From: Deinococcota bacterium
Lineage (GTDB): Bacteria > Deinococcota > Deinococci > Deinococcales > Trueperaceae
Length of the DNA: 64,000 nt
Assembly: GCA_963170125.1 (NCBI GenBank)
Contig: CAUJFI010000110.1
Location: forward strand, 1-64,000
Direction of reading: 5' to 3'
Part shown: one piece after another, positions 15,240 through 30,305 of the stretch
Layout: the number at the start of each line of letters is the position of its first letter
How positions within the stretch are numbered: the stretch's first letter is position 1
Translations under genes and position numbers: made by a program
The notes under the pieces: generated by a model
Databases searched by the model: none
What the model was told of the DNA's origin: nothing
The model's input: the letters and a program-made list of their open reading frames with translations, nothing else

Positions 15240-16235
15240 GTGGCGCGCCGCCCGCTCGTGGTGGTCGCCAGCGTGGCGCTCCTGGCGGTGCTCGCCCTGC
15301 TCAGCTTCGCGGTGGGCACCAAGCCGCTAGCGCCCAGCACCACCTGGGACGCCGTCTTCGACTTCGACCCCGCCAACGCCGACCACTTGCTCGTCAGGTA
15401 CCTGCGCCTGCCGCGAACTGCGCTGGCCCTGGTGGTCGGCTGTTGCCTCGGGGTGGCGGGGGCGGTCATGCAGGCGCTCACGCGCAACGCCCTTGCCGAC
15501 CCCGGCATCCTTGGCGTCAACGCCGGTGCGGCCGCGGCGATAGCCGCCGCCATCGCGTTCTTCGGCGTCACGAACGTGACGAGCTACATGTGGTTCGGGC
15601 TCCTCGGCGCCGCGCTGGCCGGGTTGGCTGTCTTTCTCCTCGGCGGCATGCGGCGCGGGTCGAGCCCAGTGAGGCTGGTGCTGGCGGGCGCGGCGCTCTC
15701 GATCGTCCTCCTCGCGCTCACCCAGGTCATCATCGTCAACAGCGAGGAGACGGTGTTCGACCAGTTCAGGCACTGGACGGTCGGCTCGCTCCAAGGGCGC
15801 GGGACCGGCGTCGTACTCCCCGTGAGTCTCCTGGCGCTCGTGGGCGTCGGGACGGCGTTCGGCCTGGCCAAGGCGCTCAACGCCGTGGTCCTCGGCGAGG
15901 AGGTGGGGAGGTCGCTCGGCACCGACCCTGTCAGGGTCTGGAGCCTGACCGCCCTCGTCGTGATCCTGACGAGCGGGGCGGCCACCGCCGCCGCCGGGCC
16001 GGTCGGCTTCGTCGGCCTCACCGCTCCGCACCTCGCGCGCTTCGTCACCGGCCCCGATCATAGATGGGTGCTGCCCGTCTCCATGCTCTTCTCGGCGATC
16101 CTCGTGCTCGGCGCCGACGTGTTGGGTCGCGTCGTGGCTCCGCCCGGCGAAGTCGGCGTGGGGATCATGGTCGCTCTCATCGGCGGCCCGTTCTTCGTCT
16201 ACCTGGTGCGCAACCGGAAGCTGGTGCAGCTGTGA
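15240..16235 (+). CDS. fepD: Iron-siderophore ABC transporter permease (FecCD family, FepD-like)
   Basis: 331 residues from a GTG eight bases after fepB. It has FecCD-family features: LRLPRTALALVVGCCLGVAGAVMQALTRNALADPGILGVNAGAA, then about ten hydrophobic helices and ATAAAGPVGFVGLTAPHLARFV, the region that contacts the ATPase. It forms half of the inner-membrane channel that imports ferric siderophore. The last four bases overlap the FepG gene (GTGA). Confidence 0.9.
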   Translation: MARRPLVVVASVALLAVLALLSFAVGTKPLAPSTTWDAVFDFDPANADHLLVRYLRLPRTALALVVGCCLGVAGAVMQALTRNALADPGILGVNAGAAAAIAAAIAFFGVTNVTSYMWFGLLGAALAGLAVFLLGGMRRGSSPVRLVLAGAALSIVLLALTQVIIVNSEETVFDQFRHWTVGSLQGRGTGVVLPVSLLALVGVGTAFGLAKALNAVVLGEEVGRSLGTDPVRVWSLTALVVILTSGAATAAAGPVGFVGLTAPHLARFVTGPDHRWVLPVSMLFSAILVLGADVLGRVVAPPGEVGVGIMVALIGGPFFVYLVRNRKLVQL

Positions 16236-17317
16236 GCGCACCGGCCGCGCACCGGAACGCCTCGCCGACTGTGGCCAAGCATGCCGCTCGCGGTTCGGCC
16301 GTGTGGCGCTGGCGCGGCCTCTCGCTCGCCTGGCGGCCCAGGCGGGCCGCGGTCGTGCTCGCGCTCATGGCCACTACCGCGCTCGTCGCCGCCGTCGCCA
16401 TGACCGTAGGGACCTTCCACGTGGCGTTGGCCGACGTCCTCGCGATCCTCGCCGGCAGGGGGGAGGGCGGCGTCGCGGAGAGGATCGTCATGAACATCCG
16501 GCTGCCGCGCGTCCTCGCCGGCGTCTTCGCCGGAGCCGCGCTCGGGGCGTCCGGAGCCGTGTTCCAGTCCGTGTCGCGCAACGCGCTCGGGTCGCCTGAC
16601 GTCATCGGCTTCACGACCGGCGCCGCCACGGGCGCCATCTCCCAGATCGTCCTCTTCGGCGGCGGCCCCAACCAGGTGGCCGTCGCGGCCGTGATCGGCG
16701 GGGTGCTCACGGCGGCGGTCGTCTACCTCCTGGCGCTCAGAGGCGGCATGGTGGGCGGCTACCGCCTCCTGCTGACCGGCATCGGCGTCGGCGCCATCCT
16801 CGGCGCCCTCAACGGGTTGCTGCTCGTCAGGGGCGCCCTCGACGACGCCGTCAACGCCAACCTCTGGCTCGCCGGCTCGCTCAACGCGCGCAAGTGGACC
16901 CACGTGTACCCCGTCATGCTCGGCACGCTCGCGCTCGTGCCGCTGCTCGCCCTCGGGGCCAGGCGCCTCTCGCTCATGGAGATGGGCGACGACCTCGCCA
17001 GGCAGCTGGGCGTGGCGGTCGAGCGCACGAGGCTGCTCAGCGTGTTCGGCGCGGTCCTGTTGGCCGCCTTGGCCACCGCCGCCACCGGCCCCATCGCCTT
17101 CGTCGCGCTGGCTGCGCCGCAACTGGTCGTACGCCTCGGTGGCCGCTCCGACCTGCCGGTGATCGGCGCCGCGGCCATGGGCGCGTGCTTGCTGGTGGTG
17201 GCCGACCTTGTCACCCAACTCGCCCCCTTGGGCGCCAACCTCCCGATCGGGCGCATGACGGGCGTCATCGGGGGCGTGTACCTGATCTGGCTGCTCACAC
17301 GCGGTCGGAACCTATGA
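16232..17317 (+). CDS. fepG: Iron-siderophore ABC transporter permease (FecCD family, FepG-like)
   Basis: 361 residues. After a basic N-terminal extension of about 40 residues come FecCD motifs: IRLPRVLAGVFAGAALGASGAVFQSVSRNALGSPDVIGFTTGA and ATAATGPIAFVALAAPQLVVRL. It pairs with FepD to make a heterodimeric permease. The GTG start at 16232 overlaps the FepD stop, and its own stop overlaps the ATPase start by four bases, so the three products are translationally coupled. Confidence 0.9.
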   Translation: MSAPAAHRNASPTVAKHAARGSAVWRWRGLSLAWRPRRAAVVLALMATTALVAAVAMTVGTFHVALADVLAILAGRGEGGVAERIVMNIRLPRVLAGVFAGAALGASGAVFQSVSRNALGSPDVIGFTTGAATGAISQIVLFGGGPNQVAVAAVIGGVLTAAVVYLLALRGGMVGGYRLLLTGIGVGAILGALNGLLLVRGALDDAVNANLWLAGSLNARKWTHVYPVMLGTLALVPLLALGARRLSLMEMGDDLARQLGVAVERTRLLSVFGAVLLAALATAATGPIAFVALAAPQLVVRLGGRSDLPVIGAAAMGACLLVVADLVTQLAPLGANLPIGRMTGVIGGVYLIWLLTRGRNL

Positions 17318-18111
17318 GCGAGCTGCTGGCCGCCCGGGAGGTGACGCTCGCCTACGACGGCGCGACGGTCGCCCGCGACGTGAGCGTCGCCGTTCCTGCC
17401 GGGCGCGTCACCGTCATCATCGGTCCGAACGCGTGCGGCAAGACCACGTTGCTGAGGGCGCTGGCGCGCCTGCTCGCACCGAAGAGCGGCAACGTTGTGC
17501 TGGACGGGAAGGACATCCGCAGGTACGGCACCAAGGAGGTGGCCAGGCGCCTCGGGTTGCTGCCGCAGGCGATGACGGCACCCTTCGGCATCACGGTCGC
17601 CGACCTCGTCGCCAGGGGGCGCTTCCCGCACCAGGAGCTGTTCAGGCAGTGGTCGCCCGCGGACGAGGAGGCCGTTCAGGCGGCCATGCGCCTCACGCGC
17701 GTTACGGCGCTGGCGGAGCGCGAGGTCGACGAGCTCTCCGGCGGCCAGCGCCAGCGCGTGTGGCTAGCCATGGTGCTGGCGCAGCAGACGCCCCTCATGC
17801 TCCTCGACGAGCCGACCACCTACCTGGACATCGCGCATCAGCTCGACGTGCTCGAGCTCTGCCGCAAGCTCAACCGCGAGGAGGGGCGCACGCTCGTGAT
17901 GGTGCTCCACGACCTCAACCAGGCCGCGCGCTACGCGGACCACCTCGTCGTGATGAAGGACGGCGCCGTCGTGGCGGAAGGCGCCCCGGCCGACGTGCTG
18001 ACGGTCGAGCTGCTCGCGCGCACTTTCGCCCTCGAGGCGCGCATAGCGACCGACCCGGTGTCCTCCACACCCATGGTGATCCCGGTCGCCAGCCTCGAGC
18101 GACACGACTGA
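17314..18111 (+). CDS. fepC: Iron-siderophore ABC transporter ATP-binding protein (FepC-like)
   Basis: 265 residues with Walker A GPNACGKTTLL (near residue 38), Q-loop LPQAM, ABC signature ELSGGQRQRVWLAMVLAQ, Walker B LMLLDEPTTYLD and switch His in VLHDLNQAARYAD. It powers the FepD/FepG permease. Last gene of the fep operon; its stop is seven bases from the convergent nanE stop. Confidence 0.92.
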   Translation: MSELLAAREVTLAYDGATVARDVSVAVPAGRVTVIIGPNACGKTTLLRALARLLAPKSGNVVLDGKDIRRYGTKEVARRLGLLPQAMTAPFGITVADLVARGRFPHQELFRQWSPADEEAVQAAMRLTRVTALAEREVDELSGGQRQRVWLAMVLAQQTPLMLLDEPTTYLDIAHQLDVLELCRKLNREEGRTLVMVLHDLNQAARYADHLVVMKDGAVVAEGAPADVLTVELLARTFALEARIATDPVSSTPMVIPVASLERHD

Positions 18112-18118
18112 GCTTGCG

Positions 18119-18844
18119 TCATCCGATGCCGGCGACGAACCGCTTGGCGAGCGCCAGCGTGTCGGTGATCGCCGTACCGACCACCACCGCGTGTGCCCCG
18201 GCCGCGAAGGCGGCCTTGACCTCCTCCGGTGTGCCGTACCGCCCCTCGGCGACGACCGGCCGGTCCTGCGCCGCGGCCAGGGCGGCGACGAGCGCCAGGT
18301 CCGGTCCGGTCGGCGGCGGCTCGCCGTTCGTGTAACCCGCGAGGGTGGTCGCCACGAGGTCGGCCCCCGCCTCCGCGGCGGCCACGCCTTCCGCGACGCA
18401 GGAGACATCGGCCATGATCGGCAGGTCGACGAAGGTAGCGCGGATCTGTCGGATGAGCTCGGCGGCGCTCGGCGCCCCCGTTCCCGTGCGTGGCCGCAAC
18501 GTCGCGTCCACCGCGACCAGGTCGGCACCGGCGGCCACCAGCGCCTCGGCGGAGGCGAGGCCGGGCGTGATGTAGGCGACGGGGTCTATGTCCGGGCGCT
18601 TGTCGATGCCGATGATCGGGACCGAGACGTTCGCCCTGATCGCGGCCACGAACGCCGGGCCGTCGGCCCGGATGCCGACGGCGCCGGCCAGCTCCGCCGC
18701 CCTCGCCATGGCCGCCATGTGGCTCGGGTGGCGCAACGGCGAACCCTCCGGCGCCTGGCACGAGATGACGAGGCCGCCGCGCAGCGCCGCGATCACGGCG
18801 CGCGCACGCGGACGGGCGGTCGGCCAGACCGGCAGGGCGCTCAC
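18119..18844 (-). CDS. nanE: N-acylglucosamine-6-phosphate 2-epimerase (NanE family)
   Basis: 241 residues from a GTG that overlaps the DUF4127 stop (GTGA). TIM-barrel motifs of NanE are clear: GGLVISCQAPEGSPLRHPSHMAAMARAA, SVPIIGIDKRPD, YITPGL, LVAVDATLRPR, PIMADVSCVAEGVAAAEAGADLVATTLAGYT and RPVVAEGRYGTPEEVKAAFAAGAHAVVVGTAIT. It converts ManNAc-6-P to GlcNAc-6-P. Last gene of the long amino-sugar operon; the ROK kinase in the divergent arm is the expected preceding step. Confidence 0.92.
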   Translation of the reverse strand: MSALPVWPTARPRARAVIAALRGGLVISCQAPEGSPLRHPSHMAAMARAAELAGAVGIRADGPAFVAAIRANVSVPIIGIDKRPDIDPVAYITPGLASAEALVAAGADLVAVDATLRPRTGTGAPSAAELIRQIRATFVDLPIMADVSCVAEGVAAAEAGADLVATTLAGYTNGEPPPTGPDLALVAALAAAQDRPVVAEGRYGTPEEVKAAFAAGAHAVVVGTAITDTLALAKRFVAGIG

Positions 18845-20514
18845 GCCGCCCCTCCAGCGCGCTGGACGCCCGGTGCCGCGCCCCGTTCGGTACCGCGTTC
18901 GTCGGCGCGCTCGATGGCGTAATCGATCTCGAAGACGCGCTGCCACGGGAACGCGAGGTGCGTCACCCGGTAAGGCAGCCCGAACCTCAGCGTCTCGGCG
19001 TCGAGGTCCGCGCGCGCCTGGTCGGCCACGGCGCCTTGCCGCGCCGCCGGCACGAACCCGCCCAGTCCGAGGGGCTTGAGCTCTGGCTGCAAGAGGAGGC
19101 GGGTGCGCACGCGCGCCTGGTAGAGCCAGTCGTCGACGAGGCGAGCGGCGACGGCCAGCTCCAGCGCGGCGCGGTCCGCGCCGAGGGTCGCCAGGCAGCC
19201 GAGCGTCACGGCCGAGCCGAGGGCGTTGCCCGCCGTGTTCCAACCCCCGTAGCCGACGAGCAGCGGCAGCGCGCCGTCGGTGGCCAGCCCCGTCATGAGC
19301 AGGTCGTCCGCACCGTTGACGTGGGCCACGTCCGCGAGCGCGACGAGCGCGGGGCCGTCCAGGAGCGCCCGGAGGGCGTCGCGGAAGGCCGGCAGCGACC
19401 GGTCGAGGCCGTCGACGGGCGCCTCCGCGGCGGCGAGCCAGGCCCGCTCGTCCTCGGTCAGCGTCCCGGGGTGCTCGGCGGCGTAGCCAAGCGCGTGCGC
19501 CACGCCGCCCTGCCCCTGCGACCGCGAGGGGCTGTTGACGCCGAGCCAGAGGTCCCCCGGCGCGCCGGGGGGCAGCTGCACGGCGCCGGCAGCGCGGAGG
19601 TGGACGGTGACGAGGTCGCCGAGGGGCCGGTCCTCGTACGCCGTCTGAACGTCGGCGCCGCGCCGCGACGCGTAGAACGCACTCACGCGCGGTCTGCGCC
19701 CGATCACCCGCGAGGCGAGGCGGGCGATCAGCGCCTGCGCGACCTCGTCGGCGCCCGGATAGACGAGCACGCGGTCGTCCAGGCCGCGGCGCCGGACCTC
19801 CGCCTCGAGGCGGCGCCGGGTCATCACGTTCAGGCCCCACTCCGCCGTGTCGTCCTGGTTGAGGACGAGCGTGTCGATCACGCCGCCCGCTACGAGGTCG
19901 AGCGCGGCCAGGTTGACCGCGAGCGTGCGCTGTCTGATGTCGAGCTGGTCCTGCCAGACCTCTGCGGGCAGCTCGGCGCGCAGGCCGGCGAGCTCGCGCG
20001 CTTCCTCGGCGCTGAGCGCGTCGGCGCCGGCGCGATGCTCCAGCACGGAGCGCCGGAAGATGGCGCGGCCGTACGAGCGGTAGTAGCTCGGCTCCTCCGC
20101 GTCGTCGTCCTCGCGGCTCACGCGCTGGATGCTGCTGAACGCGAGGATGGGCAGCCCGGGCGCGGCCTCCCGCATGCGCCTCAGGACCTCCAGGCGCCGC
20201 AGTGCGCCGCTGAGGTCGTTGCCCGACTGGCGCGACGGGATGAGCCCGCCCCAGGCGAGCGTGTCGAGCGCGATGACAGCGCCTAGGGGCCGTCCGGAAG
20301 GGCTACCGGAGGCGCCCGCCCCGCTCGCGGCGGACAGGAGCCAGTCGGCCAGGCCGGCCACGTCAGCTGGCGTCTTGCGGCCGCCCAGGAGGGGGGTGGG
20401 GCTCGCCAGGCCCCAGCCGAGCGCGTCGGTGAGGAGGCGCGGGTAGGCGGCGTTGATGGGGCGCTCGTCTAGGGGGATGAGCAGCAGGGAGTCGATGGTC
20501 GTGGATCCCTTCAT
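18841..20514 (-). CDS. DUF4127 family protein
   Basis: 557 residues with DUF4127 hallmarks: LLLIPLDERPINAAYPRLL at the N-terminus, ALDTLAWGGLIPSRQ, a DD/NQDDTAEWGLN segment and GYGGWNTAGNALGSAVTLG near residue 430. Function is unproven in the literature known to me. The conserved Asp, Asn and Trp residues suggest an enzyme acting on a small molecule or glycan. Its position between the sugar permeases and NanE, overlapping nanE by four bases, ties it to amino-sugar handling. No signal peptide, so it is cytoplasmic. Confidence 0.8.
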   Translation of the reverse strand: MKGSTTIDSLLLIPLDERPINAAYPRLLTDALGWGLASPTPLLGGRKTPADVAGLADWLLSAASGAGASGSPSGRPLGAVIALDTLAWGGLIPSRQSGNDLSGALRRLEVLRRMREAAPGLPILAFSSIQRVSREDDDAEEPSYYRSYGRAIFRRSVLEHRAGADALSAEEARELAGLRAELPAEVWQDQLDIRQRTLAVNLAALDLVAGGVIDTLVLNQDDTAEWGLNVMTRRRLEAEVRRRGLDDRVLVYPGADEVAQALIARLASRVIGRRPRVSAFYASRRGADVQTAYEDRPLGDLVTVHLRAAGAVQLPPGAPGDLWLGVNSPSRSQGQGGVAHALGYAAEHPGTLTEDERAWLAAAEAPVDGLDRSLPAFRDALRALLDGPALVALADVAHVNGADDLLMTGLATDGALPLLVGYGGWNTAGNALGSAVTLGCLATLGADRAALELAVAARLVDDWLYQARVRTRLLLQPELKPLGLGGFVPAARQGAVADQARADLDAETLRFGLPYRVTHLAFPWQRVFEIDYAIERADERGTERGAAPGVQRAGGAA

Positions 20515-20530
20515 GGTCGGTGCGCGGCGC

Positions 20531-21361
20531 TCAGCCTTTCACCGCTGCGGTCGACACGCCCGCGATGAACGTCTTCTGGGCGAAGAAGAACAGCAGGATG
20601 ATGGGCACGCTCATGAGGAGCGAGCCGGCCATCAGGAGCGGCCAGGCCGCCGCGCGCGTGCTGGCGAGCTGCTGCAACCCGATGGCGAGCGTGTAGAGGC
20701 GGTCGTCGGTCAGATAGATGAGCGGGTTGAGGAAGTCCGTCCAGGTCCAGATGAATATGAACAGCGACGCCGTGGCGAGGGCCGGTTTGGCGAGCGGCAG
20801 GACGATGCGCGCGAAGATCTGCCACTCGCTGGCGCCGTCGATCCGCGCGGAGTCGGAGATGTCGTTCGGGATGGCCGAGTAGAACTGGCGCAGCAGGAAG
20901 ACGGCGAAGGCGCTGCCCGTGAGCGCCGGTACGATCAGGGGCAGGAAGGTGCCGACCCAGCCGAGCTTCTGGAACATCACAAACTGCGGGATGAGCGTCA
21001 CCTGGGGCGGCAGGACCATCGTGGCGAGGAGGCAGTAGAAGAGGAGTTCGCGGCCCGGCCACTTGATGCGGGAGAAGCCGTAGGCCACGACGGCCGAAGA
21101 GGCCACGTAGAACGCCACGCTCGTCACGGTCACGAACACGGTGTTGGCCAGGTAGCGCAGGAACGGGATCTCCGTCATGAGGCGCCAGTAGTTGGACCAC
21201 ATCACGGGCGCGGGCACCCACTCCGGTGGGATGGCGAACACCTGCGCGTCGGTCTTGAGCGACGTGGAGATCATCCAGACGAACGGCGTCAGGAAGAAGA
21301 CGGCGCCCGCGACGAGCACGACGTAGACGACGAGGTTCCAGAGGCTGTTGCGGCGGCTCAT
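20531..21361 (-). CDS. Carbohydrate ABC transporter permease (MalG type)
   Basis: 276 residues with six hydrophobic helices and the EAA loop (DSARIDGASEWQIFARIVLPLAKPA) that docks the ATPase. The N-terminus (VVYVVLVAGAVFFLTPFVWMISTSLK) is typical of CUT1-family MalG proteins. The ATG overlaps the stop of the upstream MalF-type gene by one base. The start is taken there because the frame further upstream is the shadow of that gene. Confidence 0.9.
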   Translation of the reverse strand: MSRRNSLWNLVVYVVLVAGAVFFLTPFVWMISTSLKTDAQVFAIPPEWVPAPVMWSNYWRLMTEIPFLRYLANTVFVTVTSVAFYVASSAVVAYGFSRIKWPGRELLFYCLLATMVLPPQVTLIPQFVMFQKLGWVGTFLPLIVPALTGSAFAVFLLRQFYSAIPNDISDSARIDGASEWQIFARIVLPLAKPALATASLFIFIWTWTDFLNPLIYLTDDRLYTLAIGLQQLASTRAAAWPLLMAGSLLMSVPIILLFFFAQKTFIAGVSTAAVKG

Positions 21362-22254
21362 CAGCTGCGCGCCTCGTAGTAGACCCAGCCGGACGTACGG
21401 AAGACGCCGACGAGAGCGACCGCCGTGATCGCGAGCAGGACCCACGCCATGGCCGAGGCGTAGCCCATCCGGAAGAACTGGAAGGCGTTCTGGTACAGGT
21501 AGAGGGCGTAGACGAGCGTGGAGTTGGACGGGCCGCCGCCCGTCATGATGTAGATGTTCGTGAACGCCTGGAACGACGTGATGATGCCCATGATCAGGTT
21601 GAAGAGGATGACGGGGGAGAGCATCGGGAGGGTCACGAAGCGGAAGCGTTGCCACCTGCTCGCCCCGTCGAGGTCGGCGGCCTCGTAGAGCGCCACCGGC
21701 ACGTTCTGCAGCCCGGCCAGGTAGATCACCATCGAGCCGCCGACGCCCCACAGGCTCGCGAGGATGAGCGCCGGCTTGGACCAGGTAGGGTCGGCGAGCC
21801 AGCCGGGGCCGTTGATGCCGAGCTGCCAGAGGAACTCGTTCACGGGGCCGTAGTCCGGGTTGAGGAACCAGCGCCACAGGAGCGCGGCCGCCACGGCGGG
21901 CACGACGCTCGGCAGGAAGTACACCGTGCGGAAGAGCCCTTGCAGGCGCACCTTGTTGTTGAGGAGCATCGCGATCACCAGGCTCAGGCCCAATGAGAAC
22001 GGGATGCCGATCGCGGCCAGGTAGAGCGTGTTGTAGAGCGTCTTGCCGAAGAGCGGGTCTGCGAACAGGTCGGTGTAGTTGCGCGCGCCGATCCACCTGG
22101 GGGCGGACACGACGTTGTAGTCGGTGAACGAGAAGTAGAGCGAGGCGAGCACGGGGTAGACCGTGAAGACGACGAACCCGATGAGCCAGGGGGATACGAA
22201 GGCCAGCCCCAACCAGAGGTCGCGACGTTGCCGGCGGGTCATGGACCTAGGCAC
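21361..22254 (-). CDS. Carbohydrate ABC transporter permease (MalF type)
   Basis: 297 residues, six helices, with GLAFVSPWLIGFVVFTVYPVLASLY at the N-terminus and EAA loop YEAADLDGASRWQRFRFVTLPMLSP. CUT1-family partner of the downstream permease. A GTG at 22254 and an in-frame ATG at 22242 are both possible starts. No ATPase gene is present in the locus, so a shared MsmX/MalK-type ATPase elsewhere must energise it. Confidence 0.9.
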   Translation of the reverse strand: MPRSMTRRQRRDLWLGLAFVSPWLIGFVVFTVYPVLASLYFSFTDYNVVSAPRWIGARNYTDLFADPLFGKTLYNTLYLAAIGIPFSLGLSLVIAMLLNNKVRLQGLFRTVYFLPSVVPAVAAALLWRWFLNPDYGPVNEFLWQLGINGPGWLADPTWSKPALILASLWGVGGSMVIYLAGLQNVPVALYEAADLDGASRWQRFRFVTLPMLSPVILFNLIMGIITSFQAFTNIYIMTGGGPSNSTLVYALYLYQNAFQFFRMGYASAMAWVLLAITAVALVGVFRTSGWVYYEARS

Positions 22255-22338
22255 GCTCGGCCGCCCGGCGCGGCGCCGGCTCCGGCGCGCGGCCGGCCGG
22301 GCGGCCGGCTCCGGCGCCTCTGGCAGGGGACGGGCTCA

Positions 22339-23643
22339 TCAGCGGTACTTCTCCAGCTCGCGTTGCACGTTGCGCTGGGCCGTCTCGAGCGCCTCGCGGG
22401 CCGTCGCGGTGCCGTCTTGGACGGCGGCCAGCGCCTGGTTGAGCTGGTCGCTCAGGTACAGGCCGACGGGGAGGCCAGGCGGCGTGTAGACGTAGCCGGT
22501 CAGCAGCATGTCGATGTACGTCTGCATGTGCGGCGTGATGGTGTCGGCGAAGACGGGCATGGCCAGCGCGTCGCGCCGCGGCGGGATGTTGGCGAGCGCG
22601 GCCGCGAAGCGCGCGGACTGCTCGGGCGCGCTCAGCCAGAGGAGGAAGCGCGTGGCCTCGGCCTTGTGCGTCGCCTGGGCCGGTATCACCCAGAAGGAGC
22701 TCTGCACGGGCGTGACGTCGGCCCGGCCATCCTCCGGGGCGGGGAAGTTGGTGACCCCCCAGTTCAGGTCGGGGGCGTACTCGCGCGTGAACGCGACCTC
22801 CCACTGCCCGCCCTCTTGCATGGCGATCTGCCCGCGGTAGAAGGGGTTGAACGGGCTGGCCATGTCGCCCCATCCCGCCTGGAAGCGGCGGATCTTCGCG
22901 ATGTCGTACTTTTTGTAGAACGCCGTGAGCCACTCGAAGGCGGCCACGTTCCCAGGGTGGTCGAGGGTGACCTCTAGCGTCTCTGGGTCGTAGAGCTGGC
23001 CGCCGAACGCGTAGCAGTAGATGGCCGTGACGTTCGGGTAGAACCCCAGGCGACGCATGTTGCCGCGCGCGTCGACGGTCGTGAGCTGCTCGGTCAGGGC
23101 GTCGAGCTCCGCGATGGTGCGCGGGGGCGCCTCGGGGTCGAGGCCGGCCGCGGCGAAGACGTCCTTGTTCCACATGAAGGCGTAGACGTTGATGGTGGTA
23201 GGCACACCGTACTTCGCGCCCTGGTAGGCGCCGTACTCCCAGATGCCGGGCAGGTAGTCCTCCGGGCCGACACCCGCGGCGCTCAGGTCGTCGGTGAGGT
23301 CTGCCAGTGCGCCGCCGTAGCCGAGGGGGACGACCATCCAGTCCCAGACGGTCACGAGGTCGGCGGGGGCGCCGCCGGCGAGCGAGGCGAGGATGCGCTC
23401 GCCGTCGCCGATGGGCACGAACGACGAACGCACCCGCACCTCGGCCTGGCTGGCGTTGAACTCGTCGACGAGCGCCTGCAAGGCCTGCCCCTCGGAGCCG
23501 CCCCAGGCCTGCCAGAAGGTGATCTCGGTCTGGGCGGACGCGGCGGAGAGGAGGGCGAGGCTGGCGAGCGCGGCGACCCACGCGCGCAACGAGCGGCGGC
23601 GTAGGTTCCGAGTGGTGGGGCGGTCAGACGGCCGCGGGGTCAC
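22339..23643 (-). CDS. Extracellular sugar-binding protein (CUT1 family)
   Basis: 434 residues. The signal peptide (SLRAWVAALASLALLSAASAQ) is followed by TEITFWQAWGGSEGQALQALVDEFN, the classic start of family-1 solute-binding proteins, and by PYGVPTTIN-like, FYRGQIAMQEGGQWEV and SSFWVIPAQATHKAEATRFLLWLS segments. It captures the sugar outside the membrane for the two permeases downstream. The GTG start at 23643 is supported by GAGGAG eight bases upstream. The lipobox is absent, so it is secreted rather than lipid-anchored. Confidence 0.9.
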   Translation of the reverse strand: MTPRPSDRPTTRNLRRRSLRAWVAALASLALLSAASAQTEITFWQAWGGSEGQALQALVDEFNASQAEVRVRSSFVPIGDGERILASLAGGAPADLVTVWDWMVVPLGYGGALADLTDDLSAAGVGPEDYLPGIWEYGAYQGAKYGVPTTINVYAFMWNKDVFAAAGLDPEAPPRTIAELDALTEQLTTVDARGNMRRLGFYPNVTAIYCYAFGGQLYDPETLEVTLDHPGNVAAFEWLTAFYKKYDIAKIRRFQAGWGDMASPFNPFYRGQIAMQEGGQWEVAFTREYAPDLNWGVTNFPAPEDGRADVTPVQSSFWVIPAQATHKAEATRFLLWLSAPEQSARFAAALANIPPRRDALAMPVFADTITPHMQTYIDMLLTGYVYTPPGLPVGLYLSDQLNQALAAVQDGTATAREALETAQRNVQRELEKYR

Positions 23644-23719
23644 GGTTCACGCTCCTCACTGACAGGCCCCCTGGCGGCTGGGGCCGTCTGCGGGCGGCCC
23701 GGTCGCCCAGCACGGGTCC

Positions 23720-25216
23720 TCATCGTCCGAGCTCCTTCAGGTACTCCAGGTAGTCCTGGTAGAGCTGGGCGGCCGCTCCGCCGGCCCTGGGGCTCATGTG
23801 GTTCGGGAAGGCGAACGCCACGAACTTGGCGACGTAAGGCGCCTCGAGCTCGAGCTGGCTCCTAACGGTGGCGATCCTCGCGCTAGTGGCCTGCCAGGCG
23901 AGGTCGTCGACCGGCCAGCCGTGGGTCTGCTCGAAGACCTCCAGGTCCGACCAGAGCGCCACGCCGTGCGCGTCCGTCACGGCCTTGAGGGCCCGGTAGA
24001 CGGGCACGCCCTCCTCGACGGTCGTCCGTCGCGTGCCGACGCCGTCCTGCATGGCGATGACGTCGAGATCCGCCTGCGCAAGGGTGGCGTCCCACCACGC
24101 CGCGTACGCCTCGCCGTCCGGCCGCATGCCGAAGTACGGCGCCACCATCACGGGGCGACCGACCTGGGCGTGGGCGGCGTCCGCCATGGCGGCGAGGTAG
24201 GTCGTCATGGCCGCGTGGGCGACGGGGGTCACGAAGCTCCGGTCGTCGATCTCCTCGGGGAGGTAGTAGCCAACCAGCGCGGGCGAGGCGCCGTAGAGCC
24301 TCTCCAGCTCCAGCATGAGCGCCGTGTTGCTCGCGGAGGAGGCGTTCGGGTCGAACTTGCCCTCCCAGTAGGCCGGGTCGAGGGCGAGGCCGAGCCAGAC
24401 CCGGAAGCCCGCGCCCTCCGCGGCGGCCAGCAGCTCGCCTATGGGGTCCCACGTCCGCATGTCGGCGCCGGCGGCCTCGCCGTCGTGCCACCCTGCCGGA
24501 CGCCCGAGGCTCAGGTAGTGGGCGCCGTCGCCTGAGACGGAGACCGCGATGGCGGCGGGCAGCTCGACGGCCGAGACGTCCGAGCGCATGAACTGGACCT
24601 CGACGCTGTCGAAGGCCGTCGGTTCACCAAGGTCGAAGTCGATGACGATCTCGCCGGCAGGCAGCTGCCAGCCGACCATGTCGGACCAGGCGAAGTTGGC
24701 GCTGCCGTCCGTGAGCTTCCCGCCCGTCGCGGCGTTCGGGTCGAGGTAGGTGCCGGAGGGGCCGGGCGTCAGGGCGTAGCCGCGGCCGGCCACGACGTTA
24801 CGGCCGTTGTCGAGCACGCGGACCTCGGGGATCATCGTCCACTCCTTGCTGCTCGGCGTGACGACGACCCGCACGTGCGTCGCCTTGGCCGGAGTTTCCG
24901 CCTGCCAGGCGAGCGTGGCGATGGACTCGTTAGGCGGCAGGGTCGCCGCCGCGGGCGGCGCGCCCGGGATGGCAGCGACCGTCGGGAAGTAGCTCACCTC
25001 GCCGTAGCGGGAGTACTGGACGATCAGCGTGTCGAAGCCGACCGAGCGCATGCGCTCCAGCTCCGCGCGCCACCCGTCCTCACCGAGCGTGGCGAGCTGG
25101 TAGTCGAACTGCACGAACGTGCCGGTGAGCACGGGTTCCGTCTGGGCGAACGCCGTGCCCACCAGGGCGATGGCCCCGGTGAGCACGGCGTCGCGCACCT
25201 GTCTCCGCAGCGTCAT
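23720..25216 (-). CDS. Secreted DUF4434 glycosidase-like protein with inserted discoidin-like module
   Basis: 498 residues with a signal peptide ending AFAQ (residue 25). Residues 30-78 (TGTFVQFDYQL.., GFDTLIVQYSRYGE) and 255-490 (LAAAEGAGFRVWLGLALD, GYYLPEEIDDRSF, MVAPYFGMRPDG, DVIAMQDGVG, SDLEVFEQ) form a DUF4434 TIM-barrel domain, a family suspected to act on glycans. Between them, residues about 80-250 hold a discoidin/F5-8C-like module with KLTDGSANFAWSDMVGW, the same module duplicated in the gene upstream. Its ATG directly follows that gene's TAG. Glu and Asp in PEEIDD are candidate catalytic residues (inference). Confidence 0.7.
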   Translation of the reverse strand: MTLRRQVRDAVLTGAIALVGTAFAQTEPVLTGTFVQFDYQLATLGEDGWRAELERMRSVGFDTLIVQYSRYGEVSYFPTVAAIPGAPPAAATLPPNESIATLAWQAETPAKATHVRVVVTPSSKEWTMIPEVRVLDNGRNVVAGRGYALTPGPSGTYLDPNAATGGKLTDGSANFAWSDMVGWQLPAGEIVIDFDLGEPTAFDSVEVQFMRSDVSAVELPAAIAVSVSGDGAHYLSLGRPAGWHDGEAAGADMRTWDPIGELLAAAEGAGFRVWLGLALDPAYWEGKFDPNASSASNTALMLELERLYGASPALVGYYLPEEIDDRSFVTPVAHAAMTTYLAAMADAAHAQVGRPVMVAPYFGMRPDGEAYAAWWDATLAQADLDVIAMQDGVGTRRTTVEEGVPVYRALKAVTDAHGVALWSDLEVFEQTHGWPVDDLAWQATSARIATVRSQLELEAPYVAKFVAFAFPNHMSPRAGGAAAQLYQDYLEYLKELGR

Positions 25217-26290
25217 CTACTCAGCTGCTTCCTGGACCTCCGGCACCGCGGCCCCGGTCTGCACCACGACCTCGGCGAGCATGAGCCACCCGGTACGCTG
25301 GCGGATCTGGAGCTTGACGTAGCGGCCGCCGACCGGCTCCTGCAGGTCCTCCCAATAGACGGAGTTGATGAGCTCGTTCATGGCGGGGGAGGGGGCGGTC
25401 TTGGCGGCGAGGCCGACGACCGTGAAGTTCTCGCCGTCGTCCGAGACGGACACGAGGATGCTGTACGGCAGGTTGACGGCCGAGGCGAACGAGCGCATGA
25501 ACAGGCCGGCGACGCGGGTGATGCCGTCGACGTGCTCGCCGAGGTCGACCACGACGACCGGGTTGAAGGTGGCGTCGGCGATGCCGACCATGTCGGCCCA
25601 CGAGTAGGCGTACGCGCCGTCGGTCAGCTTGGCGCCGTCAGGGTCCGGGTACGCCTCGGAGGCCGCCGGCTGGAGTGAGTAGGTCTTGCCTAGCGCCACG
25701 TTCACGGCCTCGGCGCTGGCGGGCGTGTTCCCCGAGGCAGCGGGCAGGCGGTCGGCCGGGACGGCGCCGTTGCCCACCTGGAGCTCGGCGACCATCGTCC
25801 AGCCGCCGCCGGGCAGGAGCTCGACGCGCACGTACTGCCCGTAACCCGCCCACGCCTCGTCCGCCCAGACGAGCGTGCCGATCGTGTCGTTCGCGACCTC
25901 GCCCTCCAGGGCAACGTTGGCCAGGCCGAGGTCCTCCCATAGGACGCCGTCTTCCGAGACGGAGACGATGGCGGTGGGGAGCGAGACGGCCGAGCCGTCG
26001 GAGCGCATGACCTTCAGGGCGACGTAGCTGATCGTGTCGTAGACGGCGCCGAGGTCGACGGTGAGGGCGACCGGCTCCGCGCCTTCGAAGCCGACCATGT
26101 CGGCCCACGCGAAGGCGTAGGCGCCGTCCGTGAGCTTGAGCCCGTCGCCGTCCGGGTACGCCTCGGCGGCCGGGCGGCTGGACGTGACGAGCTTGCCGGC
26201 GGCGATGTCGAAGTCCGCCGACTGCGCGAAGGCGAACGTCCCGGCGAGCGTGAGCGCCGCGATTAGGAGCTTGATCGACTGGGGTTGCAT
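25217..26290 (-). CDS. Secreted protein with two tandem discoidin-like carbohydrate-binding modules
   Basis: 357 residues: signal peptide to AFAQ, then two repeats of about 150 residues. Each begins with GK-x-Y/V..AYPD-x-DG-x-KLTDGAYAF/YxWADMVG, continues with a VDLG..D.I..V strand, MRS..SAV.LP and SVS.DG, and ends with a YV+ strand (VGNGAV / VQTGAAV). This layout is typical of F5/8 type C domains that bind sugars. It is the first gene of the amino-sugar operon and likely presents substrate at the cell surface. The start at 26290 is set by AGGAGG six bases upstream; the longer frame to 26365 lacks a signal sequence at its N-terminus. Confidence 0.7.
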   Translation of the reverse strand: MQPQSIKLLIAALTLAGTFAFAQSADFDIAAGKLVTSSRPAAEAYPDGDGLKLTDGAYAFAWADMVGFEGAEPVALTVDLGAVYDTISYVALKVMRSDGSAVSLPTAIVSVSEDGVLWEDLGLANVALEGEVANDTIGTLVWADEAWAGYGQYVRVELLPGGGWTMVAELQVGNGAVPADRLPAASGNTPASAEAVNVALGKTYSLQPAASEAYPDPDGAKLTDGAYAYSWADMVGIADATFNPVVVVDLGEHVDGITRVAGLFMRSFASAVNLPYSILVSVSDDGENFTVVGLAAKTAPSPAMNELINSVYWEDLQEPVGGRYVKLQIRQRTGWLMLAEVVVQTGAAVPEVQEAAE

Positions 26291-26350
26291 GCGGTCCTCC
26301 TGGTGGGTGTCGACCGACCGGCCTGCCGAGGTCGGTCGCCGCACCCCAGA

Positions 26351-26388
26351 TTGAGCGAGGCTCAAAAACCATGAACTTGAGATTGAGC
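26351..26388. promoter_or_regulatory. Candidate RpiR operator: TTGAGC inverted and direct repeats
   Basis: TTGAGC-GAG-GCTCAA (26351-26365) is a perfect inverted repeat with a three-base centre. Two further TTGAG(C) half-sites follow at 26377-26381 and 26383-26388. They lie in the 184-base divergent region between the discoidin operon and the RpiR gene, the natural place for the regulator to bind both promoters. Binding is inference. Confidence 0.5.
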
Positions 26389-26474
26389 CACACTCGTTAT
26401 GGCATGCTAGGCGTGGAGGGTAGCTCTGTCAAGGGTCGGACCTCCCGCCCAGGGCTGCACGTATCGACTGCCTC

Positions 26475-27299
26475 ATGCCGCGTCTGTTGACCAAGCTCCG
26501 CGCCTCGCTACCCGATCTCAGCCCTGTGCTGCGGCGCGTGGCCGATTACGTGCTCGAACACCCGGACGCCGTCATCTACCACAGCGTCACCGAGCTCGCC
26601 GAGGCGGCGCGCAGCAGCGAGGGCAGCATCATCCGCTTCTGCCAGGACCTCGGCTTCTCCGGGTTCCAAGAGTTCAAGCTGACGCTGGCAGTCGAGTCTG
26701 GCACGCCGAGCCGCTCCCTCGAGCCCAACGGCGAGACGAGCCTCATGACCAAGCTCGCGCACCACGCCGCCGGCACGCTCGCCGAGACCGCGACGCTCTT
26801 CGAGCAAGACGTCTTCGAGACCGTGGCCCAGCGCCTGGCCGCCGCGACGCGTATCGACGTCTACGGCGTCGGCGCCTCGGGAGTCGTGGCGCAGTACTTC
26901 GCTTACAAGCTCCTGCGCTTCGGGTTGACGGCCCAGGCGTACACGGACCTGCACCTGGGCTCCATGAGCGCTTCCAACCTCTCGCCGACGTCCGTCGCCA
27001 TCGGCGTCTCCAGCTCGGGCTCCACCATCGACACGCTCCAGGCCGTCAAGGTCGCCAAGGCGGCGGGCGCCTTCACCGTCGCCGTCACGAACAGGCTCAA
27101 GAGCCCCCTCGCCAAGGTGGCCGACCGCAGCCTGTTCGCCTCGCCGCCCGAGTCGCCCCTCACGGGCGGTGACGTCTTCGCCAAGATCGGCCAGCTCCTC
27201 GTGCTCGAGGGGCTCGTGCGGCTCATGGCGGAAGCGGACGACGAGTTCAAGGAGGGCGTGCGGCGCACGGCCCAGGTCGTCGCGGACAGGAGCATGTGA
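26475..27299 (+). CDS. MurR/RpiR-family transcriptional regulator
   Basis: 274 residues. N-terminal HTH (residues 1-80) with SVTELAEAARSSEGSIIRFCQDLGFSGFQEFKL, then an SIS sugar-phosphate-binding domain (about 115-250) with RIDVYGVGASGVVAQYFAYKLLRFG, GVSSSGSTIDTLQAVKVAKAAGAFTVAVTN. Such regulators sense phosphosugars; here ManNAc-6-P or GlcNAc-6-P are reasonable ligands given NanE and the ROK kinase. It is divergent from the transport operon and three bases upstream of the kinase gene, so it probably controls both arms. Confidence 0.9.
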   Translation: MPRLLTKLRASLPDLSPVLRRVADYVLEHPDAVIYHSVTELAEAARSSEGSIIRFCQDLGFSGFQEFKLTLAVESGTPSRSLEPNGETSLMTKLAHHAAGTLAETATLFEQDVFETVAQRLAAATRIDVYGVGASGVVAQYFAYKLLRFGLTAQAYTDLHLGSMSASNLSPTSVAIGVSSSGSTIDTLQAVKVAKAAGAFTVAVTNRLKSPLAKVADRSLFASPPESPLTGGDVFAKIGQLLVLEGLVRLMAEADDEFKEGVRRTAQVVADRSM

Positions 27300-27302
27300 A
27301 CG

Positions 27303-28175
27303 GTGACACGAGTTCCTGTGCTCGCCATGGACGTGGGTGGCACGAAGCTGGCCGTCGCGCTCGTGCGTGGGGCGGACGTCATCGATCAGGAGCTGGCGAC
27401 CACCCCCGCCAACGACGGTCCCGAGGCGGTCGTCGCTGCGCTCGGGGTCGCCGCGACCAGCCTCCTCGCGCGCGCCGCAGAGGCCCCGGTGGCCCTGGGC
27501 GTGGCTTGCGCGGGCTTGGTCCGCGCCGGCAAGGTGCGGGCCGTCAGCCGCGACCTACTGCCTGGTTGGGACGACTTCCCGCTCGTGGAGCGGTTGGAGC
27601 GCGCCCTCGCCTTGCCCGCCCTTGGCTTGCCCGTCGTGGCCCTGAACGACGCGCAGGCCGCGGCCTACGGTGAAGCCCTGCACGGCGCCGGGCGCGGGCG
27701 CGGCTCGTCCTTCTTCGTCACGGTCTCCACCGGAGTCGGGGGCGGCTTCGTCGTCGGCGACCAGCTCTGGCAGGGGGCGACTGGCCTCGCCGGCCACCTG
27801 GGCCACGTGGGTGGCGGCGTGCTCGAGCGGATGACGTCTGGCACCGCGCTGGAGCGCAGGGCGGCCGAGTTCGGCCACGCCGCCACCGCCCGTGAGATCG
27901 TGGCCGCCGCCGAGGAGCGGCAGCCGTGGGCCCGCGGCCTCCTGGACGGCGCGGCGGCCGCCCTCGCGGCGGCGTTGGTGGACGTGAAGTACGTCGTCGA
28001 CCCCGAGGTGATCGTCCTGGGTGGCGGCGTCGGACTGAACCCCACGTTTCGCGCGGCGCTCGAGGTCGCCTTCCTCAGCGTCGACGAGGCGCTGCGGACC
28101 CCGGTTGTGGCGGCAGAGCTCGGCGCGGCGGCCGGGCTCGTCGGTGTCGCCGCGTGGGCCACGAAGGGCCGGTAA
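27303..28175 (+). CDS. ROK-family sugar kinase (probable N-acylmannosamine kinase)
   Basis: 290 residues from GTG 27303. ROK motifs: phosphate loop MDVGGTKLAVAL, catalytic Asp in NDAQAAAYGE, TVSTGVGGGFVVGDQLWQGATGLAGHLGHV, and VIVLGGGVGLNP. The usual ROK zinc site (CxCGxxGCxE after the second His) is missing; the stretch reads VGGGVLERMTSG with no cysteines, as in some zinc-free ROK kinases. Next to NanE the most likely substrate is ManNAc, giving ManNAc-6-P, but glucose or GlcNAc kinase activity cannot be excluded. Three bases after the RpiR stop. Confidence 0.85.
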   Translation: MTRVPVLAMDVGGTKLAVALVRGADVIDQELATTPANDGPEAVVAALGVAATSLLARAAEAPVALGVACAGLVRAGKVRAVSRDLLPGWDDFPLVERLERALALPALGLPVVALNDAQAAAYGEALHGAGRGRGSSFFVTVSTGVGGGFVVGDQLWQGATGLAGHLGHVGGGVLERMTSGTALERRAAEFGHAATAREIVAAAEERQPWARGLLDGAAAALAAALVDVKYVVDPEVIVLGGGVGLNPTFRAALEVAFLSVDEALRTPVVAAELGAAAGLVGVAAWATKGR

Positions 28176-28216: not shown

Positions 28217-29608
28217 CTAGGGAACCCGCGCCAGCCTGCCCAAGGTCATGTCCACCCCGGCGGCGCAGCCCCTGACCGTCGGGTCGGCGGCCGACGGCGT
28301 CCAGCCCGCGCTGATGTCCTCGGCGCGGTAAGCGACGAGCGCCTCGCCCGAGGGGGTGACGGCCACGGCCGGCTGCCTGAAGAACCAGTAGCCCACGTTG
28401 CAGCCGCGGTAGAGGAAGATGTCGTCCGCCGGGAGGTCCTCGCCCGTCTCCACGGTGTCCGCGCCCCAGTCGTCCGACCTGGAGCGGCCGACGCAGTCGT
28501 TATCGCACGTGCCGAGGTAGATGTTGGAGCCGTGCGTGTACACGAGCCTGGGGTGCTCGGCGGCCGTGAGGACGAGCTGGAGACCGTCTCCCAGCCGCAG
28601 CGCCACCTCACCCGAGCTGAGGGCGATGGCCGTCCACGCCTCGCCCTCGGCGGCCGTGCAGCCCGCGTCGCACTCGAAGTACGCGAGGAAGCGCTCGCCG
28701 TCGTTCTGGCCCAGGAACGCGAGGCGCGCCCCGCCTGCGGCCGTGACCGCCAGGCTGACGGACGGCTGGATCTCCTCGACGTAGCGGTCGAAGAACGCGT
28801 GGCCGAGGCCGATGCCCGGCCAGTTGTCGACCTCCTCGGAGCCGCAGTCGACCTCGCACCTCAGGTAGGCGACGAGGTCGGCGCCCTCGACCGGGATGAC
28901 CGCAGCGACGTGCGCCACACCGCTCGGGTCGTAGACGAACGTGGGCTCGAGCCAGCTCTGCTCGCTTATCAGCCCGCGTCTCCAACTGGCCGGGTCGAGG
29001 CAGTTCCCGTCGCAGGAGAAGAACAGCGTGCCAGGGTCGGGGGCGAAGAGCCCAAGGTAGGTCTGCTCCGCGTGCATGAGGAAGCGCGGACGGCCGTCGG
29101 GGTCGAGCGCGAAGGCCTCGCCCGTCAGCTCCCAATCGCCGTCATGCGTGTAGACGTTGGCGAGCGACCAGGCGCGGTCGTCGCGGCAGTCGCCACCGCA
29201 TTCGGCGTAGAAGACGGAGTCGTGCGTGGCGAGCAGGAGCCGCGGCCTGCCGGCGCCGTCGAGCGCTACGAGGGCGTTGCCGACGGCGCCGGCCTCGCCC
29301 GTCTCGAACACGACGGTCCACATCTCCTCGGCGCTGCCGCAGCCGGGCGGGCAGTAGGCGTACACGGCGCCGGCGGCCGCAACGAGGGGGTAGACGAGGT
29401 GGAGGCCGCCGTCGGCGTCGGTACGCACGCGCGGGTCTCCGGTGTTGTAGACCTCCTCGCCGGTCGGCAGGAAGAACGGTTGCGCGAGGGCCCAGGCGGC
29501 GAGGCCTAGCATCAGGCAGACGAGCGCCAGGCGTGAGGCGCGGAGGGTGGGGCGGGGGCGTCTCGGGGCGCTACGTGGCGCTGCAAGGGAGGCTCTATTG
29601 GCTCGCAT
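28217..29608 (-). CDS. Secreted repeat protein with six C-x3-C motifs, probable beta-propeller
   Basis: 463 residues after choosing the ATG at 29608, which places a signal peptide (ALVCLMLGLAAWALAQ) at the N-terminus; the frame upstream is non-homologous. Six Cys pairs spaced C-x3-C occur at about residues 86/90, 137/141, 199/203, 251/255, 313/317 and 368/372, each after an aromatic strand (for example YAYCPPGC, FYAECGGDC, FFSCDGNC). Repeats such as DGAGRPRLLL, DPDGRPRFLM and DPSGVAHVAAV give a period of 50-60 residues, consistent with a six-bladed propeller. CATAAT lies nine bases upstream. I do not recognise a named family; the role is unknown. Confidence 0.6.
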   Translation of the reverse strand: MRANRASLAAPRSAPRRPRPTLRASRLALVCLMLGLAAWALAQPFFLPTGEEVYNTGDPRVRTDADGGLHLVYPLVAAAGAVYAYCPPGCGSAEEMWTVVFETGEAGAVGNALVALDGAGRPRLLLATHDSVFYAECGGDCRDDRAWSLANVYTHDGDWELTGEAFALDPDGRPRFLMHAEQTYLGLFAPDPGTLFFSCDGNCLDPASWRRGLISEQSWLEPTFVYDPSGVAHVAAVIPVEGADLVAYLRCEVDCGSEEVDNWPGIGLGHAFFDRYVEEIQPSVSLAVTAAGGARLAFLGQNDGERFLAYFECDAGCTAAEGEAWTAIALSSGEVALRLGDGLQLVLTAAEHPRLVYTHGSNIYLGTCDNDCVGRSRSDDWGADTVETGEDLPADDIFLYRGCNVGYWFFRQPAVAVTPSGEALVAYRAEDISAGWTPSAADPTVRGCAAGVDMTLGRLARVP

Positions 29609-29732
29609 AGCTGGACCATTATGCCGTGACGGGGGCGGCCACGGAACCTGCGTGCGGGGGGCCGGGGAACGTGCGTGCCCAGGCCAGACGAGCACCAACG
29701 ATTCGGGGAACGCGCGTTCCGGGGCCAGACAC

Positions 29733-30305
29733 TCAGCCGAGGAACCGCCGCGCCTCGTCGGGGGTGGGCAGCCGACAGGAGTCCTTGCGGCCAAACCACC
29801 GGTAACGGCGCTTCGCGACGAAGTCGTATACGGCGTCGCGCAGCCCAACCGGCAGGACGACGTACACGCTCAGCACGGGCCAGAGCCCGTTCAGGTGCTT
29901 GAGGAGCCGTAGACCTGCGGTGGAGCGGTCGTAGATGCGGCCGCCCTCGATCAGGAAGACGGTCGGCGGGTCGTCGTTCGCGCGCTCCGGCAGCGAGCCG
30001 TGCGGGAGCTGCGCCGCGTAGCGGGCGAGCAGCGCCATGCCCACGTCCGACTGCAGCGCGGCGAAGCGCACCTTGCCCTGTGGGTCGCGGTCGATCACGA
30101 AGCGGACGGCCGCGTTGCAGAGGTTGCAGACGCCGTCGAAGAGGAGGACGGGGCCAGCCTCGGAAGGGGCCGTTGCCTGCGCGTCGACCCCAGGGGCCGC
30201 CTTGGCATCGACCACGGAGCGCGCGGCCTGCGCGTCGGCCCCGGTGGTCGCCGCCTCACGACCGGCTGCCGCTTGGCTCGAAAGCTCGTCCGCAGGCGCC
30301 GTCAC
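29733..30305 (-). CDS. DCC-family (DUF393) thiol-disulfide oxidoreductase-like protein
   Basis: 190 residues. After an Ala-rich N-terminal extension of about 50 residues comes LLFDGVCNLCNAAVRFVIDRDP, the D-G-x-C-x-x-C-N signature of the family, then FAALQSDVG and a C-terminal FVAKRRYRWFGRKDSCRLP. DCC proteins have a thioredoxin-like fold and are thought to act as small redox proteins. Start GTG at 30305, divergent from the DinB-like gene; CAGACT lies six bases upstream. The extension is unusual and may not all be translated if a later start is used. Confidence 0.85.
   Translation of the reverse strand: MTAPADELSSQAAAGREAATTGADAQAARSVVDAKAAPGVDAQATAPSEAGPVLLFDGVCNLCNAAVRFVIDRDPQGKVRFAALQSDVGMALLARYAAQLPHGSLPERANDDPPTVFLIEGGRIYDRSTAGLRLLKHLNGLWPVLSVYVVLPVGLRDAVYDFVAKRRYRWFGRKDSCRLPTPDEARRFLG

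Follow-up and report, generated by a model that had tools for sequence, protein, structure and literature searches.

The window analysed here is a 64,000-nucleotide stretch of DNA, contig C110 of a 3.08-Mb Deinococcota draft genome, and it carries at positions 18119-28175 a nine-gene locus that pairs a protein of the DUF4127 family with NanE, the N-acetylmannosamine-6-phosphate (ManNAc-6-P) 2-epimerase. All gene assignments are backed by Pfam and NCBIfam profile matches. The genes are read outward from a divergent intergenic region of 184 bases. Leftward, on the minus strand, lie a secreted two-domain F5/8 type C (discoidin) protein (25217..26290; PF00754, 1e-12, in two stretches), a secreted DUF4434 protein that resembles TIM-barrel glycosidases, its barrel interrupted by an F5/8 type C domain (23720..25216; PF14488, 2.8e-42), a secreted substrate-binding protein (22339..23643; SBP_bac_1, 2.5e-32), two CUT1-type ATP-binding cassette (ABC) permeases, the first MalF/UgpA-like (21361..22254; PF00528, 1e-19) and the second MalG/UgpE-like (20531..21361; PF00528, 9e-17; PRK10973, 118 bits, below cut-off), the DUF4127 protein (18841..20514; PF13552, 3e-116, above the gathering score) and NanE (18119..18844; PF04131, 1.6e-50). 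The DUF4127 protein is without a signal peptide, and we propose that it is a cytoplasmic glycosidase that releases N-acetylmannosamine (ManNAc). Rightward, on the plus strand, a MurR/RpiR-family regulator (26475..27299; HTH_6, PF01418, 8e-21; SIS, PF01380, 5e-17) is followed by a ROK sugar kinase (27303..28175; PF00480, 4e-48). Several neighbours share a few bases: the NanE start (GTG at 18844) overlaps the DUF4127 stop codon, and the start of permease 2 (ATG at 21361) overlaps the stop of permease 1. The start of the discoidin protein was placed at approximately 26290 instead of 26365. The profile matches and the start and stop coordinates bear out the original prediction of a compact nine-gene regulon with overlapping genes.

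The only promoter-like match in 10.5 kb, a sigma-70-like TTGACA-17-TAGCAT identified by promoter scan (26404..26432, minus strand), reads into the leftward operon, and both of its hexamers are kept when the intergenic regions of four relatives are aligned. Between this promoter and the first leftward gene sits the palindrome TTGAGC-N3-GCTCAA (26351..26365). It has a single exact copy in the whole window genome and one exact copy, at the same locus, in each of two same-genus genomes; the two copies of the locus that have diverged further do not keep it exactly. A single-copy palindrome is consistent with a local repressor, the simplest candidate being the divergently encoded RpiR, and would make this site a putative operator. 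An RpiR-family protein of Streptococcus pneumoniae, NanR, is reported to bind ManNAc-6-P (PMC12713135).

The arrangement is not a matter of chance, because three same-genus genomes and one genome of another genus of the same family share the nine-gene order; one of these ends in DUF4127 at a contig edge, before NanE. The locus is nevertheless accessory, since two further same-genus genomes are without DUF4127 and NanE. The nearest named relative of the genome in the collections is a Trueperaceae assembly, and its DUF4127 protein is 84% identical to that of the window. Among 61 Deinococcota relatives, NanE is found in 13 of the 14 that encode a long DUF4127 protein, versus 7 of the 47 that do not (Fisher, 1.4e-7), and the single long-DUF4127 relative without NanE is a genome cut off at a contig edge. 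When bacterial and archaeal genomes were scanned, 184 DUF4127-encoding stretches emerged, the best 80 of which, from many phyla, were analysed. NanE lies within 9 kb of DUF4127 at 48 of these 80 loci and in 41 of 53 groups by name, most of them genera; about 0.5 loci would be expected by chance, which is our estimate for one to two NanE genes per genome placed at random. The linkage of DUF4127 with NanE is solid. The original prediction had proposed that co-occurrence of these families be followed across genomes, and DUF4127 does prove to be linked with NanE, ROK and a sugar importer. We define here an operon type composed of DUF4127, NanE, a sugar importer and RpiR or ROK, and the window locus is an operon of this type.

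The importer and the accompanying enzyme change together. Loci with a CUT1 ABC importer (permeases and binding protein) encode ROK in 31 of 36 cases and a HAD phosphatase in none of the 36, whereas loci with a Lac/Cel-type phosphotransferase system (PTS) never encode ROK (0/13) and always a Cof-type HAD phosphatase (13/13). Fisher tests of this split gave 3e-8 for ROK and 4e-12 for HAD, values that overstate independence since the loci are related. On the DUF4127 tree the transporter type has switched five times or more, so the split is not one inherited accident. The exchange of CUT1 and ROK for PTS and HAD indicates that the step of DUF4127 lies after sugar import and before ManNAc-6-P. The ABC loci often carry an FAD (flavin adenine dinucleotide) oxidoreductase, GH38, GH84 or secreted GHL10/DUF4985 proteins as well. 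The smallest operons, in Listeria and Enterococcus durans, consist of NanE, HAD, DUF4127, PTS IIC and RpiR, and an independently annotated Carnobacterium plasmid has the series NanE-HAD-DUF4127-PTS IIC-RpiR. In such minimal PTS operons no gene product other than DUF4127 is a candidate for cutting the sugar that is imported. Importers of the CUT1 and Lac/Cel PTS types usually carry di- or oligosaccharides. Some residues are specific to the DUF4127 proteins of PTS loci, for example AG to NC beside an invariant WNT; these may reflect descent and not substrate, because the PTS loci cluster on the tree.

The enzymes flanking this step are consistent with ManNAc. NanE, the only one in the window genome, can be classed as a nan-operon epimerase because it scores above the PRK01130 subfamily cut-off (246.6 bits, cut-off 189); its PDB relatives are 1yxy and 3q58, and the R, K, D and E residues at the aligned positions, which we take to be catalytic, are kept. 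The best NCBIfam match of the ROK protein is the ManNAc kinase PRK05082, at 178 bits below the cut-off of 283, and its best PDB match is Escherichia coli NanK (2aa4, 1.9e-31). It keeps the DVGGTK and NDAQAA motifs and is without the zinc CxC...C stretch. The ManNAc-type chemistry of the original prediction is supported. The same prediction had also noted that neither a sialate lyase nor a GlcNAc-6-P (N-acetylglucosamine-6-phosphate) deacetylase was present. For the lyase this extends to the genome: N-acetylneuraminate lyase NanA (TIGR00683) is not found above cut-off in any of five genomes, and its best score in the window genome is 52 bits versus a cut-off of 382. For the deacetylase the absence is local only, as a NagA above cut-off is encoded outside the locus, on contig C91. 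A NagB-like candidate is on contig C68, and in a related genome (G010) the NagB-like gene directly follows NagA. The puzzle of the missing enzymes partly dissolves, because NagA and a NagB candidate lie elsewhere in the genome.

Across 86 long DUF4127 members approximately 35 residues are near-invariant. D16, R18, R95, R131, D221, D222, D256, E257, D395, N400, W425 and N430 are among those also kept in most of the divergent shorter members, several of which begin with a clear signal peptide. An enzyme able to act extracellularly is unlikely to need adenosine triphosphate (ATP) or nicotinamide adenine dinucleotide (NAD); that signal-peptide members keep the conserved residues argues against dependence on either and favours a cofactor-free hydrolase. 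The shorter subfamily with signal peptides (loci L044, L045, L047, L050, L019 and L029) occurs in other families of this order, where most of the genomes concerned have no NanE; it probably acts outside the cytoplasm. The AlphaFold2 model of the window DUF4127 protein has a predicted local distance difference test (pLDDT) score of 87, and a deep-alignment model of a Bacillus ortholog reached a pLDDT of 96.3 and a predicted template modelling score of 0.95.

The reading that we consider probable is that the locus is a self-regulated operon for scavenging a ManNAc-containing oligosaccharide, with DUF4127 as the glycosidase that frees ManNAc. Outside the cell, the discoidin and DUF4434 proteins would bind and trim a polysaccharide. 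A short oligosaccharide would then be imported by the binding protein and the CUT1 permeases, together with an ATPase encoded elsewhere, and in the cytoplasm DUF4127 would free ManNAc from it. ROK would phosphorylate ManNAc, NanE would convert ManNAc-6-P to GlcNAc-6-P, and NagA and the NagB-like deaminase, both from elsewhere in the genome, would lead on to fructose-6-P. The operon would be controlled by RpiR, probably through sensing of ManNAc-6-P. For DUF4127 loci at large the best reading is that the product, made from an imported oligosaccharide, is either ManNAc or ManNAc-6-P. We infer glycosidic cleavage by DUF4127, ManNAc as its product and the nature of the polysaccharide.

Several observations weigh against this reading. 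A fold search of the PDB with the two DUF4127 models gave no match at E<=0.001, and a sequence search of the PDB with DUF4127 found no relative. The search does detect the DUF4127 fold where it is present, since a predicted viral protein in BFVD (A0A346TNQ6) was recovered as a full-length relative with a template modelling (TM) score of 0.83 and 25% identity. The PDB matches, all of low TM-score, are mostly barrel enzymes; sugar isomerases and GH84 entries are among the matches, at TM-scores of approximately 0.2. Profile comparison of DUF4127 by hhalign with GH84, GH38, GHL10, NagA, SIS, FAD oxidoreductase, HAD, esterase, DUF4434, EIIC and NanE gave nothing. With no fold or glycosidase-profile match, the term glycosidase for DUF4127 rests on context. 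The invariant D221-D222 pair follows a possible fourth core strand, and in the models its apparent position at the place of the GH84 catalytic pair is a hint only, given the TM-score of approximately 0.2 to GH84 and the negative profile comparison. The NagB-like protein scores higher as a deaminase than as a phosphogluconolactonase, but below cut-off. The constant HAD phosphatase is unexplained if the PTS delivers a phosphorylated disaccharide, and the absence of ROK from PTS loci is not an absolute rule, as Priestia plasmid loci hold two ROK genes along with DUF4127, NanE, RpiR and a Glc-type PTS. NanE is not close by at every DUF4127 locus. In Paenibacillus, a glucosaminate-6-P pathway takes its place beside DUF4127, so the DUF4127 product may not always be ManNAc.

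The alternative with most room is one in which DUF4127 turns an imported sugar or sugar phosphate into ManNAc or ManNAc-6-P by isomerisation, by epimerisation or by removal of a non-sugar substituent (ether or ketal). It would account for the missing kinship to any glycosidase, in fold or in profile, and the HAD phosphatase of the PTS loci hints at more than plain hydrolysis. The sugar isomerases among the fold matches point the same way, but mean little at such TM-scores, and the usual cargo of the importers, together with smallest PTS operons that have no other cleaving enzyme, speaks for cleavage; we regard conversion as unlikely. It is improbable that free ManNAc or a ManNAc derivative is taken up and that DUF4127 is an accessory off the main route. 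ROK and NanE would then be enough, as established pathway knowledge has it, but DUF4127 has persisted in the operon through all of the transporter changes, and the window locus encodes secreted proteins that act on polysaccharide. That NanE and ROK work on sugars unrelated to ManNAc is suggested by the ROK score under the NanK cut-off and by the difficulty of reading ROK specificity from sequence; the NanE score, its conserved presumed catalytic positions and the ManNAc kinases that are the nearest solved relatives of ROK make this a poor prospect. A variant sialic-acid (nan) operon with its lyase elsewhere, which NanE, the NanK-like ROK kinase and the RpiR regulator would suit, is very unlikely, and was rejected, given the NanA scores.

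Scavenging with DUF4127 as a ManNAc-freeing glycosidase remains the preferred reading of the window locus, and DUF4127 loci elsewhere show further variation. In Paenibacillus the downstream route is a different one: at L057:9959-17593, DUF4127 adjoins an EF_0837-type deacetylase, DgaE, DgaF, a PfkB kinase and a GH130 phosphorylase. An Alkaliphilus plasmid encodes DUF4127 without NanE, HAD, PTS, RpiR or ROK, and on a Deinococcus plasmid DUF4127 is accompanied by a CUT1 importer, an FAD oxidoreductase and NagZ, with NanE not nearby. Two same-genus genomes have a second DUF4127 copy (L048 and L049), which comes with a separate CUT1 importer and FAD oxidoreductase, again with NanE not nearby. An Acholeplasmataceae assembly (L090) has three tandem DUF4127 genes, with GHL10 and GH84 genes on either side. 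DUF4127 operons of four Bacillota loci (L071, L099, L109 and L123) have two additional proteins of one cluster, a xylose-isomerase-like protein and a protein of 207-234 amino acids without a Pfam match.

The DUF4434 and discoidin proteins are local accessories, outside the general DUF4127 system. Among the 61 Deinococcota relatives, DUF4434 is above cut-off in six, five of these at the DUF4127 locus, and DUF4434 and DUF4127 are found together again in one unrelated, unclassified bacterium (L054). At other DUF4127 loci the DUF4434 and discoidin proteins are absent or exchanged for secreted proteins of the GHL10/DUF4985, GH84 or DUF4855 families, and in Oceanobacillus it is DUF4855 that occupies the place held here by DUF4434. 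The original prediction, which combined the two proteins with DUF4127, NanE and ROK, was overstated in this. The DUF4434 barrel is split by the F5/8 type C insert (residues ~80-250), with positions 1-51 of the PF14488 profile matching residues 30-79 and positions 57-281 matching residues 251-478. The insert is similar to both repeats of the adjoining discoidin protein, and the motif KLTDG...DMVG is common to all three. The PDB relative of the DUF4434 protein is 4h41, a "putative alpha-L-fucosidase" (1.7e-8). The substrate-binding protein has 4r9f, the mannan-binding protein "MBP1", as its nearest solved relative (8e-51), yet sequence identity in the alignment is low, and the manno-oligosaccharide ligand of MBP1 is for that reason not transferable. 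No transporter ATPase is encoded within the locus; MalK-type ATPases are encoded elsewhere in the genome, on contigs C130 and C20.

On the NanE side, two permease-like genes and an ABC ATPase (15240-18111, plus strand), by eye resembling a siderophore or iron importer, stop eight bases short of NanE on the opposite strand. Just past the ROK gene, a secreted repeat-rich protein (28217-29848, minus strand), by eye possibly a beta-propeller, adjoins the locus in two same-genus genomes as well.

Sialic acid or free ManNAc is the starting point of the only NanE route known to us in any detail. If there is a DUF4127-based route in Deinococcota, Bacillota, Spirochaetes, Proteobacteria and others, it would explain many "orphan" nanE genes. 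Our literature search found no paper naming DUF4127, DUF4434 or "acetylmannosaminidase", and for DUF4127, a large family in which we found no characterised member, a directly testable function is now proposed. ManNAc is one of the units from which bacteria build wall polymers; for instance, 4,6-pyruvylated beta-ManNAc occurs in secondary cell wall polysaccharides (PMC6801904). More tentatively, and at somewhat less than an even chance, DUF4127 may found a glycoside hydrolase family of its own, its fold absent from the PDB, releasing ManNAc or ManNAc-6-P in a widespread pathway for ManNAc-containing wall polymers such as teichoic-acid linkage units and secondary cell wall polysaccharides.

The window locus resembles the bacterial nan operons (NanA-NanK-NanE with an RpiR-type NanR) in NanE, the NanK-like ROK, RpiR and the onward flow through NagA and NagB. 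It differs in having DUF4127 in the place of the lyase, and in a CUT1 importer accompanied by secreted DUF4434 and discoidin proteins. With the PTS (Lac/Cel)-HAD operons of Listeria, Enterococcus, Carnobacterium, Clostridium and Collinsella it shares the core of DUF4127, NanE and RpiR, but there PTS and HAD replace CUT1 and ROK, and the DUF4434 and discoidin proteins are absent. The MurNAc (N-acetylmuramic acid) recycling cluster of Bacillus subtilis encodes MurR, MurQ, MurP, NagZ and NamZ. That cluster uses the etherase MurQ and not NanE, acts on MurNAc and not ManNAc, and has no DUF4127, whereas RpiR-type control and amino-sugar salvage are common to both. NamZ itself was classed as a DUF family until its activity came to light.

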